Program-made: the position numbers and the translations under genes
NCBI GenBank assembly: GCA_023558315.1
Contig: JAMJVX010000011.1
Span: 1-64,000, forward strand
Direction: 5' to 3'
Source: Flavobacteriaceae bacterium
GTDB lineage: Bacteria; Bacteroidota; Bacteroidia; Flavobacteriales; Flavobacteriaceae
DNA: 64,000 nucleotides
Shown: positions 25,365 through 43,925 of the stretch, in pieces
Layout: each line of letters begins with the position of its first letter
How positions within the stretch are numbered: position 1 is the stretch's first letter
Notes under the pieces: generated by a model
Told to the model about the DNA's origin: nothing
Seen by the model: only the letters and a program-made list of their open reading frames with translations
Database searches by the model: none

Positions 25365-26323
25365 TAATTAAAATGATTTATAATTTTATCAGCGAGTTCT
25401 AATCCAATATTTTCTTGTGCTTCGTTAGTACTAGCACCAATATGTGGCGACAATGAAATTTTAGGGTGCATTAATACTTTCATATCTGGAGTGGGCTCGT
25501 TTTCAAAAGTATCTAAGGCGGCAAATGAAATTTTATTGTTATCTAAGGCTTTAATCAACGCTTCTTCGTCAATAAGCCCTCCACGAGAGGTATTAATGAT
25601 TGCCGCTCCTTTCTTCATTTTATTTAACTCATTTTCGCTAATAACATATCCTTTTTGAGAAGGAATATGTAAAGTTATAAAATCAGATTTCTCTAGTACC
25701 TTTTCAAAAGGTTGTGTTTTAATGTCAACATCTATAGATTGACCATTAAATAATGAAATACTAATCGTTATATCATGAATGAATTTGTCATAAATAAATA
25801 TCTCCATTCCAATTCCTAATGCAATTCTCGCTACCTGTTGTCCAATTCTTCCAAAACCAATAATACCCATGGTTTTGCCTTTTAACTCTTGTCCATTACT
25901 ATAATTTTTTTTCAGCCCCTTGAAATTGGAATCTCCAGTCAAGGGCATATTTCTATTTGCATCATATAAAAAACGTGCACCCCCGTATAAATGTGCAAAG
26001 ACAAGTTCAGCAACTGAATTAGTAGAGGAAGCAGGAGTATTGATTACATTGATTCCTTTTTCTTTAGCATATTCAACATCTATGTTGTCCATTCCTACCC
26101 CTCCGCGTCCAATTATTTTTAGTGATGGACAACTATCAATAAGATTTTTACGAACCGTTGTTGCACTTCTAACTAATAATACAGCAATATTTTCTGAATT
26201 AATATAATCGATTAAATCCTCTTGTTTAACTGGGGTTGTACATACTTTAAACCCTTTTTCAATTAATAAATTTTCTCCTGCTTTAGAGATGCCATCATTT
26301 GCTAATATTTGTATCATACTCAT
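25364..26323 (-). CDS. D-2-hydroxyacid dehydrogenase (3-phosphoglycerate dehydrogenase-like)
   Basis: 319 residues: NAD-binding motif GIIGFGRIGQQVARIA, active-site Arg in NTSRGGLIDEE, Glu in FENEP and His in LSPHIGAST. It is the short form without the C-terminal ACT or ASB regulatory domains. Because serC lies directly upstream with a shared boundary base, it most likely oxidises 3-phosphoglycerate in serine synthesis (serA function), and feedback control by serine through an ACT domain is not available. Confidence 0.88.
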   Translation of the reverse strand: MSMIQILANDGISKAGENLLIEKGFKVCTTPVKQEDLIDYINSENIAVLLVRSATTVRKNLIDSCPSLKIIGRGGVGMDNIDVEYAKEKGINVINTPASSTNSVAELVFAHLYGGARFLYDANRNMPLTGDSNFKGLKKNYSNGQELKGKTMGIIGFGRIGQQVARIALGIGMEIFIYDKFIHDITISISLFNGQSIDVDIKTQPFEKVLEKSDFITLHIPSQKGYVISENELNKMKKGAAIINTSRGGLIDEEALIKALDNNKISFAALDTFENEPTPDMKVLMHPKISLSPHIGASTNEAQENIGLELADKIINHFN

Positions 26324-27387
26324 TAGATAGATTGTTTTAATTTTTGCATACAGTCTACAAGTGTTTCTACACTTTCTATAGATAAAGCATTATAGATAGA
26401 GGCTCTGTAACCACCTACAGATCTATGCCCTTTGACTCCATTGATATTATATTCATCACAAAGCGATTGAAACTTTTGTTCGTGTTTTTCATCAGCAAGG
26501 GTAAATGTAACATTCATCAGACTTCTGTCTTTTTCATTTGCAAAACCATTAAATAAGGGGTTAGTATCAATTTCATTATATAACAACTCCGCTTTTTCCC
26601 TATTTCTTTTCTCAATTTCTTTTACTCCTCCTTGCTCTTTTATCCATTGTAGCGTTAATAAACTAACATAAATAGGAAATACAGGAGGCGTATTTAATAA
26701 ACTGTCTTTTTCAACATGATCTTTATAACTTAATATACTAGGAATAGCGGTATTTATTTTTTCTAATAATTCGTTTTTTATAATTACCAGTGTTGTTCCA
26801 GCGATACCTAAATTTTTTTGTGCACCCGCATATACTAAATCAAATTTTGAATAGTCTAACTCTCTACATAATATATCAGAACTCATATCTGCAAAAAGTG
26901 GAATAGTAGTCGCAGGAAATTTATTATACTGTGTGCCGAAAATAGTATTATTACTGGTAAGATGCAGATAGTCTAATGAGGAATCTATAGTAGGTGTTTC
27001 TGGAATGTATGAGAAATTCTTATCTTTTGAAGAACTAATTTCTTCAATAGTCCCTATGTTTTTTGCTTCTTTAATCGCCTTTTCAGACCAAGACCCTGTA
27101 TTTATATATCCAGCCTTAGTTTTTAAAAAATTAATGGCAGTCATTAAAAACTGCGTACTTGCTCCCCCTTGTAAAAATAAAGCGCTATAGTTTTTATTAT
27201 CTAGCCCAGTGAGTGCTAAACTTAACTCTTTTGCTTGTTCAATAATATTTAAAAAGGCGCTACTTCTATGTGAAATTTCTAATACAGAAAGTCCAGAGTT
27301 ATTATAATTTTTAATTCCTTCAATAGATTTTTCTATTACAAATTTAGAAATATAAGAAGGTCCAGGGTTAAAATTATGTATTTGCAT
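26323..27387 (-). CDS. serC: Phosphoserine aminotransferase
   Basis: 354 residues of the class V PLP aminotransferase SerC group: opening HNFNPGPSYI, HRSSAFLNIIEQAKEL, FLQGGASTQF, the PLP lysine in YAGAQKNLGIAGTTLVII, and C-terminal GHRSVGGYRASIYNALS. It makes 3-phosphoserine from 3-phosphohydroxypyruvate. The operon order serC, dehydrogenase, DUF6787 is read from the -7 element at 27418-27425. Confidence 0.95.
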   Translation of the reverse strand: MQIHNFNPGPSYISKFVIEKSIEGIKNYNNSGLSVLEISHRSSAFLNIIEQAKELSLALTGLDNKNYSALFLQGGASTQFLMTAINFLKTKAGYINTGSWSEKAIKEAKNIGTIEEISSSKDKNFSYIPETPTIDSSLDYLHLTSNNTIFGTQYNKFPATTIPLFADMSSDILCRELDYSKFDLVYAGAQKNLGIAGTTLVIIKNELLEKINTAIPSILSYKDHVEKDSLLNTPPVFPIYVSLLTLQWIKEQGGVKEIEKRNREKAELLYNEIDTNPLFNGFANEKDRSLMNVTFTLADEKHEQKFQSLCDEYNINGVKGHRSVGGYRASIYNALSIESVETLVDCMQKLKQSI

Positions 27388-27417
27388 AAAAAATAAGTAC
27401 TAGTTTTTTTAAGCACG

Positions 27418-27425
27418 CAAAGATA
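27418..27425 (-). promoter_or_regulatory. -7 promoter element for the serC operon
   Basis: TATCTTTG on the minus strand, full TAnnTTTG match, 30 bases before the serC ATG. Confidence 0.55.
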
Positions 27426-27492
27426 AGGAAAAGTGTAAGATATAAATTTCCATTTAAAATATTTTATATTATATTTTCTTAAATTAATAGAG

Positions 27493-27527
27493 TATTTAAA
27501 AGCACCCAGTTTTTATACTTTTAAATA
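27493..27527 (-). terminator. AT-rich hairpin downstream of the large surface-protein gene
   Basis: Perfect 10-base arms (tatttaaaag at 27493-27502, cttttaaata at 27518-27527) around a 15-base loop, about 40 bases after the stop codon of the 1336-residue gene. Stem is weak (one G-C pair) and there is no clean U-run; it could be a terminator or just AT-rich sequence. Confidence 0.3.
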
Positions 27528-27567
27528 AAAAGCTACTATTCTTTAAATGTAAATTACTTACTAGAGT

Positions 27568-30500
27568 CTAATTAAAAGTAATATTAAATTTCTCGGTAAA
27601 ACTTTCGTTTCCTTTAGAAATAACTGCTTCTAAATTTAAACTATCTCCAGAAACTGGATTACTTCCGCTACTAGAGCGTACCACGTTACAACTTGTGCCA
27701 CTGGCCTTGCTCCATGCATTTGTGCTAGTCGTTCCTGCAGCAAATCTAAGTGTAACGCTAGTGCCATTTACTGAACTTGTTGTTAGAATTGTATTTCCTG
27801 TTCCTGCTGTACAATCCCAAAAATCTACTCTACTGCTATCATTGGAAGCCCCAGCATTTACATCTAAAACAAAAAGTGTTAATCCAGAACTTGATACAGC
27901 ATTTGCACTAGCATTGATTTCATTTTGGACATTAGAACCTCCAAAAAACTCACTGGTATCATTATTAGATAATTGTAGAAGACCTAAAGCTTGGTGTACT
28001 GCTTGCCTATCATAAGGGGATATGTGGTTTGCTAATACAGGATAGCTAGATGCTGGAAAACTCCATTGGCTTCCAAATCCAGAAAAGTTACTATTCCCAT
28101 TAACCATCTGTGTAGATGTCCTACTTGTTCCTTTATCAGAAGTATTACTATTACTAGTTTCAGTATTCCAATAAATTGAAGTATTAGTGCTAGATGCAGA
28201 GGCAGTTCCAATAGCTCCTTTCGCCCCCTCTATTACCCTGCCTAATGAATATACATTATTTATTGTTCCATTATTGTTTCCTGCAAGTCCTCCAGCAAAA
28301 TCATTTGATTTAATAGAGCTTACAGAATAACAATTTGAAACATTAGATGCATAACTTCTATTCCAACTAATGACTCCTCCTAATCCAACAGAACCACTAG
28401 CTTGATAGATGTTTATAGTGGAATAACTATTTGTTATATAGTTATAATTTTCACCTACTATTCCACCTCCATTGTTATTATTAATTATAATACTTCCTCC
28501 AGCAACATAACTATTTGATATTGGACCTCTATTCTCTCCTACTATTCCACCAATTTTATTCCCACCGGAAATTCTAATATTTTCAACTGATACATTTCTT
28601 ATACTACTATTGTTATAACCAACCAATCCTCCTTTATCATCACCTGATGCTCCGAATATTTCTATATTTTTTATTGTGATATTTCTTATAGTACCATGAT
28701 TTGCCCCTACTAAACCTCCTACGAAACTATTTGCAGTAATTTTTACATCTTCAAGGTGCATATTTTCTAAAGTACCATTGACCGCACCAAACATACCTAC
28801 ATCATTTTGTGTTGAATTAATAGTGAGGTTAGTTATTTTAAACCCATTTCCATTATAAGTTCCAGTAAATCTATTACTATTACTACCAATAGGTATGAAA
28901 TTAGATATACTACTAAGGTCAATATCTGCAGTTTGAATATATTTAGCATTTAGACTATCTTTTATAGCTTGTAATTGTTCAGCAGTTGATATTTCTATTG
29001 TTTGATTTGATGCATCACTGTTCGGGATAAAACTTCGTTGAACACCATAACTAGTGCCTTCACCGTTAGAAGCATATGCTTTTACATAATGAGTATCGTC
29101 CCCAGTTAATGTAGAAAGAGTATGTTCAAAAAATCCTAAATTGTTTTTTACACCTAAAGGAACTGCAGTAACACCCGTTCCACTTATAACCAATGCATCT
29201 TCCTTAACAGTTCCATAAATAAATCCATGCTGAGTTACTTGAATATACCCCTCTAAACTTGTTAAATTCCCTTTAAATACAATACCAGTACCTGAAATAT
29301 TACTAACACTTGTAGTATTTACTTTTGGAAGTGAGTTTTTAGTAGTAAAATTGTTTTTGATGCTATAAGCTGTTCCTGAATCATTTGTCGCATAAACTAC
29401 TACATAATATGTGGTATTTGCTGACAGTCCTGTAAGTTTATAACTAAAATTACCCAAATCATTTTTATTGTTTAAAGTTATCACAGTTCCTGTTCCTGTA
29501 ATCGTAAATGCAGCATTAATATCTGAACTATATATAAACCCATTTCCATTAATAGAATTATGATAGCCTAAATTTGTAATTTCACCATTAATGGTTGCAT
29601 TATTTTGTTCAATAGAAACAGCAGCTAATGTATTTACAGAAGGAACAGTATATGATTTTGTAGTAAATTCAATAAGATTTGTATTTGTATTTTCACCTGC
29701 ATCATTTCTAGCAAATGCACTTACAGAATACATCGTATTTGGATTTAATCCAGTAATTTCTGATGAAAAATTACTTGAAACTCTATTATTGCTATATACT
29801 GTAATAGGATTTCCTGGATTTGAAGATACATAATATCTAAAACCATAACCACTCAAAGGGCTCACGCCATAACTTGTAAATTTTCCACGTAAAATAGCTG
29901 TAGTTGGTGTTAAATCTATGCTTTCTGGCGTCAAAGATTTTACAGTTGGGGCAGTAGCTGGAGTATTAGATAATGAAAGAGTGTACTCTTTGGTAATTCC
30001 GTTACTTGCAGAAACTGTAATTGTATGACTTCCCACGTTTATCATACTACCACTTGTAAAACTATTGCTTCCAATTGTAGCAGAAGCTTGGTCAGAAAGG
30101 GTAACTGAACTAAAGGTAACTTGTGTTGTGCCATAAGGCAATCCTGAAAATGAAATAGTAGGACCAGTAACACTTCTTGCTAATATATACGCACCTGCTT
30201 TAATAGTAAGAGAAAGGATATCAGCTTCATCGTTTAAAGTTTTGTAACTTTGAACTTTGCTGTATGCTGTTCCAAAACTATTAGTGGCATAAGCAGAAAA
30301 GTAGATTGTGCTATTTTCGCTTAGCCCAGTTACTACAGTCCCAAAACTTGTTGTTTGAGAGGAACTTCCGAATTCGGTTTTGGTGCTGAGTGCGGTAGTG
30401 AGATTTCCACTAGTAGAACTCCATATATGTCCGTATTGTGAAATTGTAGACGCTTCACCTCCTAAATTTGTGATGTTCCCAGAAATAGAAATTTGATTTA

Positions 30501-31578
30501 AAGTAGATTTTACATTTCCAAGACTAACAGTTGGAGCACCTTCAGGGGTCATAAAGCTACTTTGTTGTCCATAAATTACGTTTCCATTAGTGATGATGTA
30601 AGGTCGGATATAATAGGTAGAAAAAGCGTTAAGGTTTTCTATCTCAGATGTAAAATCACCTATCGTATTTTTTGTGCCTAGCTCAGAATAAAATGCATTT
30701 TCAGCACCGATGATTAAATTGTTATTTTGTAAAGTAGTACTATAAACGTGTCCGTGTTGTGTAATACTTCCAGAACCTAAACTTGAAACTGTAGAAGAAA
30801 CAATTACAGTGGTATTCGTTCCACTTCCGCTGATAGTTATATTTACTTGAGAAGACCCAGAGATTGTACCTAAAGAACCATTTTGCAAGGTTTTAAAGTT
30901 TTTGATAACTCCATAACCAGTTCCTACACTGTTAGTAGCAAAGGCTCGTACAAAATAGGTAGTGTTTTCACTAAGTCCATTAATAGAAGTAGAAAAAGTA
31001 ACACCACTAGTAGTAACATTTCCTAAATCATTTTTAATTACTCCATTTCCAGTAATAGTTGGATTATTTCCAGTACTCCAAACATGACCATGTGAAGTGA
31101 CGCTACTAGTTCCTATATCTATTATAGTTCCAGAAATAGTAGATCCGCTGACTGTAATATTTGTTGCATTATCAGTACTTACACTTGGTTTTCTAGTTTC
31201 TACAGGAGGGATTACAGGATTTGCAGCATTAATAGTTACTGTATAATTAGCAGTAGTTCCATCTTCAGCGGTAACGGTTATAGAATTTGATGTTCCGACG
31301 TTTAATTTGTCTCCAGCGCTTTTAGATGCATTTGCCTTTTCAGATATAGTAATAGTTTTAATAGAAACCTCGGTTGTTCCACTAGGGACTTTATCAGCAA
31401 AAGTGATATTCGTTTGTGAGATAGTAGCAGAATAATCTGTTGATCCTACACTGACAACTAAAGCAGTAATGGATTTTTCTTTTGATTTTTCTACGGGTTT
31501 TTCACATTGATAAATAGTAAAGGCAGTGCCAATAACTAAAATAGTTGATATTATAAGCGTTTTGAAATGTAGTTTCAT
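27568..31578 (-). CDS. Large modular surface protein (cadherin-like, FN3-like, GLUG beta-helix)
   Basis: 1336 residues. A signal with a Cys at 25 (TIYQC, an imperfect lipobox) precedes: a DUF5018/cadherin-like beta domain (about 35-117); three FN3-like repeats (130-231, 235-344, 349-447) of the type STYYIRPYIITNG and TTYFVRAFATNSVGTGYG; a second cadherin-like domain (453-537); three more FN3-like repeats (544-641, 645-746, 750-852); a GLUG-motif beta-helix (about 861-1190: VGGLVGANHGTI, IGGIVGENRGPI and similar); and a C-terminal domain (about 1193-1336) shared with the 871-residue protein at 41310-43925, with DFWDCTAGTG and a second Cys. No type A or B T9SS sorting domain is seen. Adhesion or surface display is likely; the ligand is unknown. 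Confidence 0.82.
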   Translation of the reverse strand: MKLHFKTLIISTILVIGTAFTIYQCEKPVEKSKEKSITALVVSVGSTDYSATISQTNITFADKVPSGTTEVSIKTITISEKANASKSAGDKLNVGTSNSITVTAEDGTTANYTVTINAANPVIPPVETRKPSVSTDNATNITVSGSTISGTIIDIGTSSVTSHGHVWSTGNNPTITGNGVIKNDLGNVTTSGVTFSTSINGLSENTTYFVRAFATNSVGTGYGVIKNFKTLQNGSLGTISGSSQVNITISGSGTNTTVIVSSTVSSLGSGSITQHGHVYSTTLQNNNLIIGAENAFYSELGTKNTIGDFTSEIENLNAFSTYYIRPYIITNGNVIYGQQSSFMTPEGAPTVSLGNVKSTLNQISISGNITNLGGEASTISQYGHIWSSTSGNLTTALSTKTEFGSSSQTTSFGTVVTGLSENSTIYFSAYATNSFGTAYSKVQSYKTLNDEADILSLTIKAGAYILARSVTGPTISFSGLPYGTTQVTFSSVTLSDQASATIGSNSFTSGSMINVGSHTITVSASNGITKEYTLSLSNTPATAPTVKSLTPESIDLTPTTAILRGKFTSYGVSPLSGYGFRYYVSSNPGNPITVYSNNRVSSNFSSEITGLNPNTMYSVSAFARNDAGENTNTNLIEFTTKSYTVPSVNTLAAVSIEQNNATINGEITNLGYHNSINGNGFIYSSDINAAFTITGTGTVITLNNKNDLGNFSYKLTGLSANTTYYVVVYATNDSGTAYSIKNNFTTKNSLPKVNTTSVSNISGTGIVFKGNLTSLEGYIQVTQHGFIYGTVKEDALVISGTGVTAVPLGVKNNLGFFEHTLSTLTGDDTHYVKAYASNGEGTSYGVQRSFIPNSDASNQTIEISTAEQLQAIKDSLNAKYIQTADIDLSSISNFIPIGSNSNRFTGTYNGNGFKITNLTINSTQNDVGMFGAVNGTLENMHLEDVKITANSFVGGLVGANHGTIRNITIKNIEIFGASGDDKGGLVGYNNSSIRNVSVENIRISGGNKIGGIVGENRGPISNSYVAGGSIIINNNNGGGIVGENYNYITNSYSTINIYQASGSVGLGGVISWNRSYASNVSNCYSVSSIKSNDFAGGLAGNNNGTINNVYSLGRVIEGAKGAIGTASASSTNTSIYWNTETSNSNTSDKGTSRTSTQMVNGNSNFSGFGSQWSFPASSYPVLANHISPYDRQAVHQALGLLQLSNNDTSEFFGGSNVQNEINASANAVSSSGLTLFVLDVNAGASNDSSRVDFWDCTAGTGNTILTTSSVNGTSVTLRFAAGTTSTNAWSKASGTSCNVVRSSSGSNPVSGDSLNLEAVISKGNESFTEKFNITFN

Positions 31579-31606
31579 AATAATGGTTTGGTTAATAATA
31601 AATTAA

Positions 31607-32632
31607 TTAAGGAGCAAATATAAGAAATTTTAGTGTATCAATAGTATCTGCATAGTCTGCTAATTCAGGGTGTTGTGTTTTACCAAAAGGAATGTGATTT
31701 TCTTGCTTAGAAACGACACACTGTATATTGTTTTTTTGCTCTTGAATTTGTTTTTGTAAAATCTCTAGCGTTTCATATTCTTCATAGAATAGAGTAGCGA
31801 TAGGAGGGAAGAGCGTGTTTTCTTTTTTTAACAACATAAATCCATTGTCTAAAAATTTTTCTTTGTTTAATAGATAGATAGTTCTATTATATTCATAATT
31901 ATTTCTAAACTTATTATGCGCGCTTATTTCTTTGTATAGATAAAGTTCATTAAATATAAGATTAAAATCGTATCCTTTTGGGACGAATAGTTTTGAGACA
32001 TTCCTACATCCTAATCCAAAATATCTCGTAATATCTTCACATAGATTTTGTAACTCTTCTTTTGACTCTTTTCCGTTAAGTATCGCTATGCTTGTTCTAT
32101 TTTTTCTAATGATATTTGGATATTTGCCAAAATAATAGTCAAAATATCTTCCTGTATTATCACTTCCTGTAGCTATTACGCAATCAATGTCTCTAAAGTT
32201 TTCTTTTTCAATATCAATCTGTTGGGTATATCTTTTATCAATGTTACATAGAATTTTGACGATAAAGGCAGTTAAATAGGAATCTTCTTTAGAGGTTTTA
32301 AGTATCGCTTTATGATTCGTGATAAGTACACATAATAAGTCATGTAGTCCTACTAATGGAATATTACTAGGTATTATAATTCCAATTTTCTTTGATTTTT
32401 GATTGGATAAATTATATGACGATACCCATTCTTTAATTTTTTCATTGGTAAGAGTTTCTCCCCAAACTTTCATCGAATAGAGAATATTTTCTTTTGTAAA
32501 CCATGGGTTTTGAATTTCCGTTTGTTCTATACATTGTTTCAAGGATTGATATTTTTTATTTAGTAAATTAATATTCCTAAAAAAATCTCCAAGAGCGACT
32601 AAATTTTTTATATGTGAAGAAGTGTCTAACAT
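31607..32632 (-). CDS. LuxC-like acyl-CoA reductase
   Basis: 341 residues of the LuxC/acyl-CoA reductase branch of the aldehyde dehydrogenase superfamily: KKIGIIIPSNIPLVGLHDLL, CVIATGSDNT, and the catalytic Cys209 in YFGLGCRNVSKLFVP. LuxC homologues reduce acyl-CoA or acyl-ACP to aldehyde; no luciferase genes are present, so this is a general metabolic or lipid role. It is divergent from a 4Fe-4S ferredoxin gene, with overlapping promoter boxes. Its last codons contain the -7 box of the next surface-protein gene. Confidence 0.83.
   Translation of the reverse strand: MLDTSSHIKNLVALGDFFRNINLLNKKYQSLKQCIEQTEIQNPWFTKENILYSMKVWGETLTNEKIKEWVSSYNLSNQKSKKIGIIIPSNIPLVGLHDLLCVLITNHKAILKTSKEDSYLTAFIVKILCNIDKRYTQQIDIEKENFRDIDCVIATGSDNTGRYFDYYFGKYPNIIRKNRTSIAILNGKESKEELQNLCEDITRYFGLGCRNVSKLFVPKGYDFNLIFNELYLYKEISAHNKFRNNYEYNRTIYLLNKEKFLDNGFMLLKKENTLFPPIATLFYEEYETLEILQKQIQEQKNNIQCVVSKQENHIPFGKTQHPELADYADTIDTLKFLIFAP
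31615..31622 (-). promoter_or_regulatory. -7 promoter element for the 1336-residue surface protein
   Basis: TATATTTG on the minus strand, inside the last codons of the acyl-CoA reductase gene, 36 bases before the surface-protein ATG. A TTG about 16 bases upstream could serve as -33. Confidence 0.5.
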
Positions 32633-41254: not shown

Positions 41255-41283
41255 AAAACCCCCACCTTTTTGGTGAGGGTTTT
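41255..41283. terminator. Bidirectional rho-independent terminator
   Basis: A 12-pair stem with one mismatch (AAAACCCCCACC with GGTGAGGGTTTT) and a five-T loop. On the minus strand the stem is followed by a T-rich tract (GGTTTTTTGTTTTTTAA), so it is a strong terminator for the 871-residue surface protein; on the plus strand it can terminate carB-reductase transcription. It lies between the two convergent genes. Confidence 0.82.
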
Positions 41284-41309: not shown

Positions 41310-43925
41310 CTATTCAAACGTAATTTTAAAACGTCTGGTGTAACTTTCTCCGCCTTTAGATAGGACGGCTTCTAAATCTAATACATTTCCAGATATTGGA
41401 TTACTACCCGTAGCGGAACGTACCATTGTACAATTCCCACTCATCGCCCAAGCCGTTTTGTCGCCTGTAGTTCCTGAACCGTACTGTAATGTAACACTAG
41501 TTCCATTTATCGCACTCGTTGTAAGAATGGTATCTCCTGTTCCTTCTGTACAATCCCAAAAATCTATACGGCTTGTATCATTTGCCGCAAAAGCATTGAC
41601 GTCAAAAATGTATAATTCACTTCCTTCAGTGTTAAAAGAACTCGCTTCTACATAGGTATCTCTTTGACTATTATTAGTCCTACCAATATAAAAATTTGCT
41701 CCTGTTGAAGATTCCATGGTTAATTGAATTGCTCCCCCTGCTTGGTATAGTGATTGTGTATTGGCTGGAATTGTACTATTATTCAACGTTGGATACGAAG
41801 ACGTTGGAAAATCCCAATTAGAGGAATTTAAACCACTATAATTTGAGCTACCCGCAAGCATTTCCGCAGAGGTTCTTCCTGTAGTTCCGCTACTACCACC
41901 AATACCACCAGCTCCTGTAGATCTGCTACTTGTCTCTGTATTCCAATATAGATTAGAAATAGAAAGGTTATTATACCTAAATCCAATTACTCCGCCTACA
42001 TTACTAGATGCTCTTGCTATAAGTGCATTACTATAACTATTTTCTATAGTCAAATTAGCCCCATCTCCAATTAAACCTCCTACATGAAACCCCCCAGCTA
42101 TTATTCCCCCCACTACATAAGAATTTGAAATTCGGTTATTTGTAGTAGTAAAATGATAAAAAGATCCAACTAATCCCCCAGCATAACTATGTGCATCAAC
42201 ATCTACACCTATAACTAAACTATTATTTATAGTAATCCCGCTGCTATAACTTGCATAGCCAATTAATCCCCCTGCATTGCCTTCATCTGCTTTAATGTTT
42301 CCTTCAACAACGGAACAGTTATTTAAAGTCGTACCTCCATTACTATAACCTAATAATCCTCCAACATTCCTATTTCCACGAATATCAATATTTTCCAACC
42401 AAACATTGTTTAAAGTTGCATTTTGTGTTGAACCAAATAATCCTACCCTATTTTCACTTATTCTATCAATGGTTAAGTTTTTAATTACATACCCATTTCC
42501 ATCGTATGAGCCCGTGAAATTAGAGGAACTACTTCCAATAGGGTCAAAATTAGTAATACTACTAAGGTCAATGTCTGTCAACTGAAAATAGTCGCCATCT
42601 AAATTATCATTAATCGCTTGTAATTCTGCCGCTGTTGATATTCCAATAAATTTATTAGTAGAGGGGTTAAAACTTAGAATGGTACTACCATAGGTAGTCC
42701 CTGCACTTGTAGTGGCGTAGGCTCTAACTTTGTAGCTTCCTGATAAACTTGTTGTAATAGTGTGATTAAAGTTTCCTAAAGTGCTCTTTGTTCCTAAGGG
42801 AATATTTATCACTCCTGTCTCCCCAATTCTTAGTAAATTTCCTGAAATACTAGAGTTACCATAGACAAATCCATGTTGTGAAACTTGTGAATATCCCGTT
42901 CCAAAATCACTTATGTTCCCAACTAAGAATATCCCAGACCCTGACACATTAATAGCACTGGTCGTATTTACAGTAGTTGGCGTTGGCGTTAATGTCGTGA
43001 AACTAACCACAGACCCATAGCTAGTTCTTGCACCATTGGTTGCATACGCCACCGTATAGTATAGCGTACTAGCAGTTAATCCCGTTAAATTGTTTGTAAA
43101 ACTAGCTACTTCTATACTACTCCCTACCGCTACCTTTGTACCACTACCTGTAAGCGTGAGTGCTCCACCAGAGGTGGTACTATAAATAAATCCATAGCCA
43201 CTAATGGGTGTATTTCCAGTATTGGTTACTTCTCCATTTAATGTTACCGAGGTATGACTCACATTTGTAGCATTTGTGGTACTTACTGCTGGAGGGGTTG
43301 GAGAGGAAGTATTTATAGAGATACTATAAATTTGCGTACTGTCATCTTGTGCAGTAACCGTAATTGTCCCTCCACTAAAGGCGACAACGTCACCTACATT
43401 TTTGTTAGCAGTTGCATATTCAGATAGCGAGATAGAATAAATCGTTGCTTGTGTAGCATTATTTGTAACTACATTCGCAGTAATATTTGTTCCAGAAATA
43501 GTTCCTTTATATTTAGCGCTGTTACCATCAACAGAAAATGTAATCGCAGTAATCGCTTTTTCAGTAGAAGCAGAAACAGCGTTTATAATGACAGTATAAG
43601 TTTGCGTACTCCCATCCTCAGCAGTTACTGTTATTGTATTTGAAGCAACGTTAAGTTTGTCCCCTACCTTTTTAGTGGCAGAAGCTTTATCTGAAATTGT
43701 AAATGTTTTTATGGTAACCTCAGTTGTACCATAGGGAACACCATTAGCAAAGGTTATATTTGTACCTGCAATAGTCCCAGAATAATCTGTACTTCCTACA
43801 GACACAACCAACGCAGTAATTGCATTAGCTTTTGATTTTTCAGGTTCTGGTTTTTCACATTGATAAATAGTCAAGGCAGTAGCCAAAACAATAAGCGTTG
43901 AAAAAATAAAAGTTTTAAGTTTCAT
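41310..43925 (-). CDS. Second modular surface protein (cadherin-like, FN3-like, GLUG beta-helix)
   Basis: 871 residues, related to the 1336-residue protein at 27568-31578 over both ends. Signal with Cys23 (TIYQC), two DUF5018/cadherin-like domains (34-115 and 123-205), two FN3-like repeats (about 210-312 and 316-420), a GLUG-type beta-helix (about 427-722: VGGLLGYSNGGTTL, AGGLIGYASYSS, VGGLIGDGANLT), and the C-terminal domain shared with the first protein (about 725-871, IDFWDCTEGTG, CTMVRSATGSNPISG). It has fewer FN3-like repeats. Inserted between the FNR gene and the S41 peptidase gene. Surface display or adhesion is inferred. Confidence 0.82.
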   Translation of the reverse strand: MKLKTFIFSTLIVLATALTIYQCEKPEPEKSKANAITALVVSVGSTDYSGTIAGTNITFANGVPYGTTEVTIKTFTISDKASATKKVGDKLNVASNTITVTAEDGSTQTYTVIINAVSASTEKAITAITFSVDGNSAKYKGTISGTNITANVVTNNATQATIYSISLSEYATANKNVGDVVAFSGGTITVTAQDDSTQIYSISINTSSPTPPAVSTTNATNVSHTSVTLNGEVTNTGNTPISGYGFIYSTTSGGALTLTGSGTKVAVGSSIEVASFTNNLTGLTASTLYYTVAYATNGARTSYGSVVSFTTLTPTPTTVNTTSAINVSGSGIFLVGNISDFGTGYSQVSQHGFVYGNSSISGNLLRIGETGVINIPLGTKSTLGNFNHTITTSLSGSYKVRAYATTSAGTTYGSTILSFNPSTNKFIGISTAAELQAINDNLDGDYFQLTDIDLSSITNFDPIGSSSSNFTGSYDGNGYVIKNLTIDRISENRVGLFGSTQNATLNNVWLENIDIRGNRNVGGLLGYSNGGTTLNNCSVVEGNIKADEGNAGGLIGYASYSSGITINNSLVIGVDVDAHSYAGGLVGSFYHFTTTNNRISNSYVVGGIIAGGFHVGGLIGDGANLTIENSYSNALIARASSNVGGVIGFRYNNLSISNLYWNTETSSRSTGAGGIGGSSGTTGRTSAEMLAGSSNYSGLNSSNWDFPTSSYPTLNNSTIPANTQSLYQAGGAIQLTMESSTGANFYIGRTNNSQRDTYVEASSFNTEGSELYIFDVNAFAANDTSRIDFWDCTEGTGDTILTTSAINGTSVTLQYGSGTTGDKTAWAMSGNCTMVRSATGSNPISGNVLDLEAVLSKGGESYTRRFKITFE

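Follow-up and report, generated by a model that had tools for sequence, protein, structure and literature searches.

A domain of about 150 residues behind GLUG modules in a putative surface lipoprotein family of a Flavobacteriaceae bacterium

GLUG modules form a described family found in many bacteria, and are represented among surface proteins by the GLUG-motif and Peptidase_M26_N types (PF07581, PF05342). Large surface proteins of Bacteroidota may end in a type A, B or C sorting domain of the T9SS (TIGR04183, TIGR04131, cl41395), and type A CTDs are Ig-like (PMC10202324). In surface-exposed lipoproteins of Bacteroidota, Lys and acidic residues come after a Cys close to the N-terminus; a motif for surface export, C-X-K-(D/E)2, has been described for Capnocytophaga, and the lipoprotein export motif varies between species (PMC5080379).

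In a stretch of 64,000 nucleotides from a Flavobacteriaceae bacterium, hereafter the window, two ORFs, 27568-31578(-) (1336 aa, protein 1) and 41310-43925(-) (871 aa, protein 2), end in a domain that recalls these systems. Like T9SS sorting domains it is C-terminal in large Bacteroidota surface proteins and possibly Ig-like, but it lacks a family match, is tied to GLUG only and can be internal, and its host proteins, unlike those with sorting domains, have an N-terminal lipoprotein-like signal. The module before it is a normal GLUG, whereas the domain itself lies outside PF07581 and PF05342. The two genes contain the following features.

27571-28023, minus strand: terminal domain of protein 1, residues 1186-1336, homologous to 12 further places in the genome
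27811-27813 and 27688-27690, minus strand: Cys codons of the protein 1 domain, read from the sequence
28033-28998, minus strand: GLUG module of protein 1, beta-solenoid type, adjoining the terminal domain upstream (PF07581, 8.2e-11; own-genome GLUG search)
29026-31188, minus strand: stalk of protein 1, six FN3-like repeats and, between them, one cadherin-like domain (PF00041, 5e-8; iterated HMMs)
31231-31470, minus strand: first cadherin-like (CAD) domain of protein 1, the stalk domain of the family (124 own-genome matches)
31504-31578, minus strand: N-terminal signal of protein 1 with lipoprotein-like Cys (...TIYQ, then CEKP from the Cys on); a similar QC[KEQ][KRP]-type pattern is found in most full-length paralogues
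41255-41283, minus strand: terminator-like hairpin 3' of the protein 2 gene; similar sequence follows the other clade-B copies C8, C17 and C34
41313-41774, minus strand: terminal domain of protein 2, residues 718-871 (homology search and alignment)
41550-41552 and 41430-41432, minus strand: Cys codons of the protein 2 domain, read from the sequence
41784-42647, minus strand: GLUG module of protein 2 (iterated HMMs; own-genome GLUG search)
42666-43292, minus strand: two FN3-like repeats of protein 2 (iterated HMMs)
43314-43820, minus strand: two cadherin-like domains of protein 2 (CAD search of own genome; iterated HMMs)
43857-43925, minus strand: N-terminal signal of protein 2 with lipoprotein-like Cys (...TIYQ, then CEKP from the Cys on; sequence and family pattern)

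The tails of proteins 1 and 2 are about 51% identical over 150/154 residues, and their BLOSUM62 local score of 377 compares with a mean of 40 (s.d. 7.5, maximum 77; z about 45) in 1000 shuffles, confirming the shared C-terminal domain that a first-pass annotation had proposed. Each tail contains the motif DFWDCT.GTG.TILTTS..NGTSVTL and both Cys, and the codon positions bear out the DFWDCT motif and second Cys reported there. The GLUG end motif SSYP[VT]L directly precedes the domain, which in the window proteins ends at the stop codon; segments placed at 27571-28002 and 41313-41753 were correctly located, but their upstream edge lies slightly further out, at 28023 and 41774. The two had been taken for proteins of unrelated loci that merely share a tail. 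By sequence they are instead paralogues that share their architecture (signal, cadherin-like, FN3-like, GLUG, terminal domain) and differ in repeat numbers. The idea of a conserved C-terminal module on otherwise reshuffled proteins holds, and both Cys of the module are invariant.

In 15/15 relatives of the same bacterial family checked at this locus, the genes for acyl-CoA reductase and serC are direct neighbours with the same orientation and a short gap between them. In the window (26323-32632) the 4 kb protein 1 gene lies exactly between them and starts 28 bp past the stop of the acyl-CoA reductase gene. It is a single-gene insertion into this conserved pair, which suggests that single genes of the protein family can enter between housekeeping genes.

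Copies of the domain were surveyed in the assembly (1.56 Mb, 83 contigs, 92% complete) by searches and by fetching stretches of the matching loci. The tail search identified 13 places: ten complete or nearly complete domains (two on contig C11, one each on C77, C48, C57, C6, C25, C8, C17 and C54), one domain truncated where its contig stops (C34) and two decayed remnants (C45 and C1). With C54 standing apart, they form two sequence groups, an HQA.GLLQLS type that includes the copy at 27571 and a YQAGG.IQLT type that includes the copy at 41313 and those on C8, C17 and C34. As the window holds one copy of each group, its two genes are not a recent tandem pair. Clade-B copies have a common terminator-like hairpin 3' of the stop codon (ACCCTCACC ... 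GGTGGGGGTTTT), indicating that duplication took in the 3' flank. The remnants L018 (G000:C45:82537-83017) and L019 (G000:C1:15502-15720) have kept no more than the final 50-65 codons of the domain, and their breakpoints lie near each other; the former is fused out of frame to a family N-terminus and the latter adjoins the tmRNA gene.

Both Cys are invariant in 10/10 full domains and are usually the only ones besides that of the signal and, in most copies, one or two within GLUG; a disulfide between the two is plausible. Close copies show dN/dS values of 0.11-0.20 at pS 0.25-0.67, and the protein sequence is thus under selection and not merely copied. More distant pairs are near synonymous saturation, with the protein still 45-60% identical. 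Wherever the contig permits the check, every intact domain has GLUG directly upstream, and all GLUG modules found in the genome are followed by the domain within a few residues. In the C54 protein (3290 aa), GLUG and domain occupy residues 2334-2757, the domain itself residues 2609-2757, and FN3-like and leucine-rich repeats follow for about 530 residues; a C-terminal position is therefore not required.

The host family was delineated with iterated HMMs and fetched loci, and its architecture runs from an N-terminal signal with a QC[KEQ][KRP]-type motif through CAD, FN3-like and GLUG parts to the domain. This genome yields 124 matches to the CAD domain; a search of 250 other genomes of the same bacterial family (E<=1e-5, at most 22 candidates scored per genome) found a maximum of 3 copies per genome. 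The protein family amounts to 54 ORFs or fragments and about 7.7% of the assembly, which is probably an underestimate because 25 of the 54 are cut by contig ends. For the same reason the family has likely led to breaks in the assembly, and the gene number is uncertain; a count of at least 45 genes or fragments takes pieces on separate contigs as separate genes. Family loci are spread over many contigs (for example C7, C58, C13, C14 and C25; loci L072-L103). At L089 (G000:C8:33447-34197) the reading frame of a family N-terminus changes and the sequence carries on in an overlapping ORF, so that the copy may be frameshifted or the assembly wrong at this point. Siblings that share the putative anchor and the stalk have LRR, kelch (PF24681, 2.2e-30), SMP-30/propeller-like or DM13-like modules at their ends, and the C-terminal part thus behaves as an exchangeable head; these siblings are the chief ground for using that term.

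At the N-terminus, a hydrophobic stretch precedes the QC[KEQ][KRP]-type pattern in most of the family, with a Gln at -1 that is atypical for a lipobox. The window proteins, like many family copies, have C-X-K-P followed by acidic residues and do not match C-X-K-(D/E)2 exactly. The family thus resembles the described surface-exposed lipoproteins (PMC5080379) in having Lys and acidic residues behind a Cys close to the N-terminus, and differs from them by Pro at +4 and Gln at -1; its surface exposure is predicted here. We interpret this N-terminus as a lipoprotein-like signal and putative anchor.

The domain was sought in overlapping sets of about 60 to 400 genomes, taken at the level of relatives, family, order, phylum and class, none of which included another species of the same genus. 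No convincing relative emerged, with at most nine candidates scored per genome in the larger samples. GTDB contigs (two pattern scans), viral contigs (one pattern scan) and phages and plasmids (tblastn) likewise yielded no relative; these collections may omit records of the window's own or very near genomes. The first-pass annotation had suggested checking whether HMM hits all lie at C-termini; nearly all copies do, the C54 copy is internal, and sampled Bacteroidota genomes held no convincing relatives. Weak outside hits of the wide HMM searches, to a Ser/Thr-rich repeat protein (G727), a PLP-dependent sulfur-amino-acid enzyme (G747) and a repeat protein (G1349), were rejected, the matches being partial, compositional or motif-only. 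A reading frame with a stop in G1259 matched a wide HMM weakly (E 0.003), and PHROGs gave a best E of 0.0012, in 1/10 members, to families of unknown function. The sole match of a PDB sequence search, Wzc kinase (E 0.84), was judged to be due to chance, and homology to the family's own CAD or FN3 domains was rejected at an hhalign probability of about 1% or less. Within the sampled collections and as far as tested, the domain appears lineage-restricted, and an origin inside this lineage is likely.

Structure prediction, also proposed initially, was informative for part of the domain. The full-domain model from the two window sequences was too poor for a fold search (pLDDT 40), whereas the last 100 residues were modelled as all beta (pLDDT 64), with the final hairpin at pLDDT 77-87. 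Foldseek returned no match to this model at E<=0.001; the weak PDB matches (E>=0.15) were largely Ig-like. In motif order, the last 75 residues resemble aBig_2, the atrophied bacterial Ig domain (PF20578): LTTS..NGTSVTL ... SG..L.LEAVISKG.ES.T..F.ITF in the domain corresponds to LPTSGANGTTITW ... TVTLTATITKG..S.TKTFTVTV in aBig_2. Unlike aBig_2, the domain has about 75 extra residues at the front, two Cys and a longer middle insert. The most divergent copy scored 14.1 bits against PF20578 (E 0.041, model positions 27-85 of 89; cut-off 27 bits), and no copy tested reached the curated cut-off. In a profile-profile comparison with aBig the score was 26.6, while the best of 60 column shuffles reached 18.3; the alignment was confident only in the last 23 columns, over the final hairpin. 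The aBig profile comprised domains from plasmid records and one PDB chain, gathered with a consensus-like seed whose identity as PF20578 was confirmed at 9.5e-37 and which did not itself enter the profile. A PF20578 search in relatives yielded nothing above cut-off, rendering this family unusable as a bridge. The last 75 residues thus weakly resemble the Ig-like (aBig) fold and membership in aBig_2 is not established; from model and motifs, the last 75-100 residues probably adopt an Ig-like fold.

The domain is shared, stands strictly behind GLUG, is under purifying selection and keeps its Cys invariant, and it belongs to proteins with a common N-terminus whose siblings have alternative heads. 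On balance we lean towards a model in which it is the outermost module of a GLUG-type head in a modular surface lipoprotein family, where it caps the solenoid and contributes to binding. The protein would leave the cytoplasm through Sec, receive a lipid on the Cys close to its N-terminus and be anchored in the outer membrane. Cadherin-like and FN3-like repeats would form a stalk of variable length, with the GLUG solenoid and the disulfide-containing, all-beta, probably Ig-like domain of about 150 residues as distal head. There the domain may cap the solenoid and help to bind a partner, for example a glycan or another cell surface.

The main rival of this model is a pure folding cap: the domain would seal off the GLUG solenoid at its end and guard against aggregation without taking part in binding itself. 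A folding cap, one of the functions considered initially, is conceivable since GLUG precedes the domain wherever a copy allows the check, and the one-to-one pairing and constant spacing after SSYP[VT]L, internal copy included, favour it. However, GLUG is widespread while the domain lacks relatives in the sampled genomes and GTDB pattern scans, so GLUG does not generally need it, and a module of about 150 residues, with its two Cys and long invariant motif, is large for a simple cap; we therefore consider a cap and nothing else rather unlikely.

That the domain acts in sorting, attachment or cleavage, as a novel kind of T9SS-like C-terminal signal, is very improbable, even though nearly all copies are C-terminal, type A T9SS CTDs are Ig-like too (PMC10202324) and at least one TIGR04183 protein in the genome indicates that a T9SS probably exists. 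Neither window protein matches a Pfam or NCBIfam sorting-domain model at E<=1, in line with the initial view that this is no type A or B sorting domain; a match of this kind had been named there as one of the findings that would refute the proposal. Sorting tags are found after many different modules, the domain after GLUG alone. Attachment would already be explained by the N-terminal lipoprotein-like Cys, common to siblings that have the same putative anchor and stalk but no domain, and the sorting or cleavage reading is at odds with the missing family match and with the internal copy, which about 530 residues follow. We give hardly any credence to an effect at the DNA level, with the 3' end serving as a recombination or gene-conversion platform for head shuffling. 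The common downstream flank of clade-B copies, the neighbouring breakpoints of the two remnants that hold the last 50-65 codons alone and the 25/54 family ORFs cut by contig ends would fit it, but pS is 0.5-0.7 in most pairs while the protein is conserved, arguing against recent homogenisation, and shared blocks of >=150 bp at >=88% identity numbered only nine. On this synonymous divergence, gene conversion was rejected as the origin of the conservation.

None of the family libraries searched has an entry for the domain, which would make a small new family and help to annotate surface proteins listed as 'hypothetical'. A tentative extension is that a scaffold expanded to at least 45 genes with exchangeable heads serves as a recognition repertoire towards other cells, in which the domain would be a new disulfide-bonded binding module. 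With about 7.7% of the assembly of a 1.56 Mb genome devoted to one modular lipoprotein-like family, head exchange and its targets are testable in a simple system. Should other strains have different head sets at the same sites, the family would represent a repertoire for contact with hosts or neighbours.
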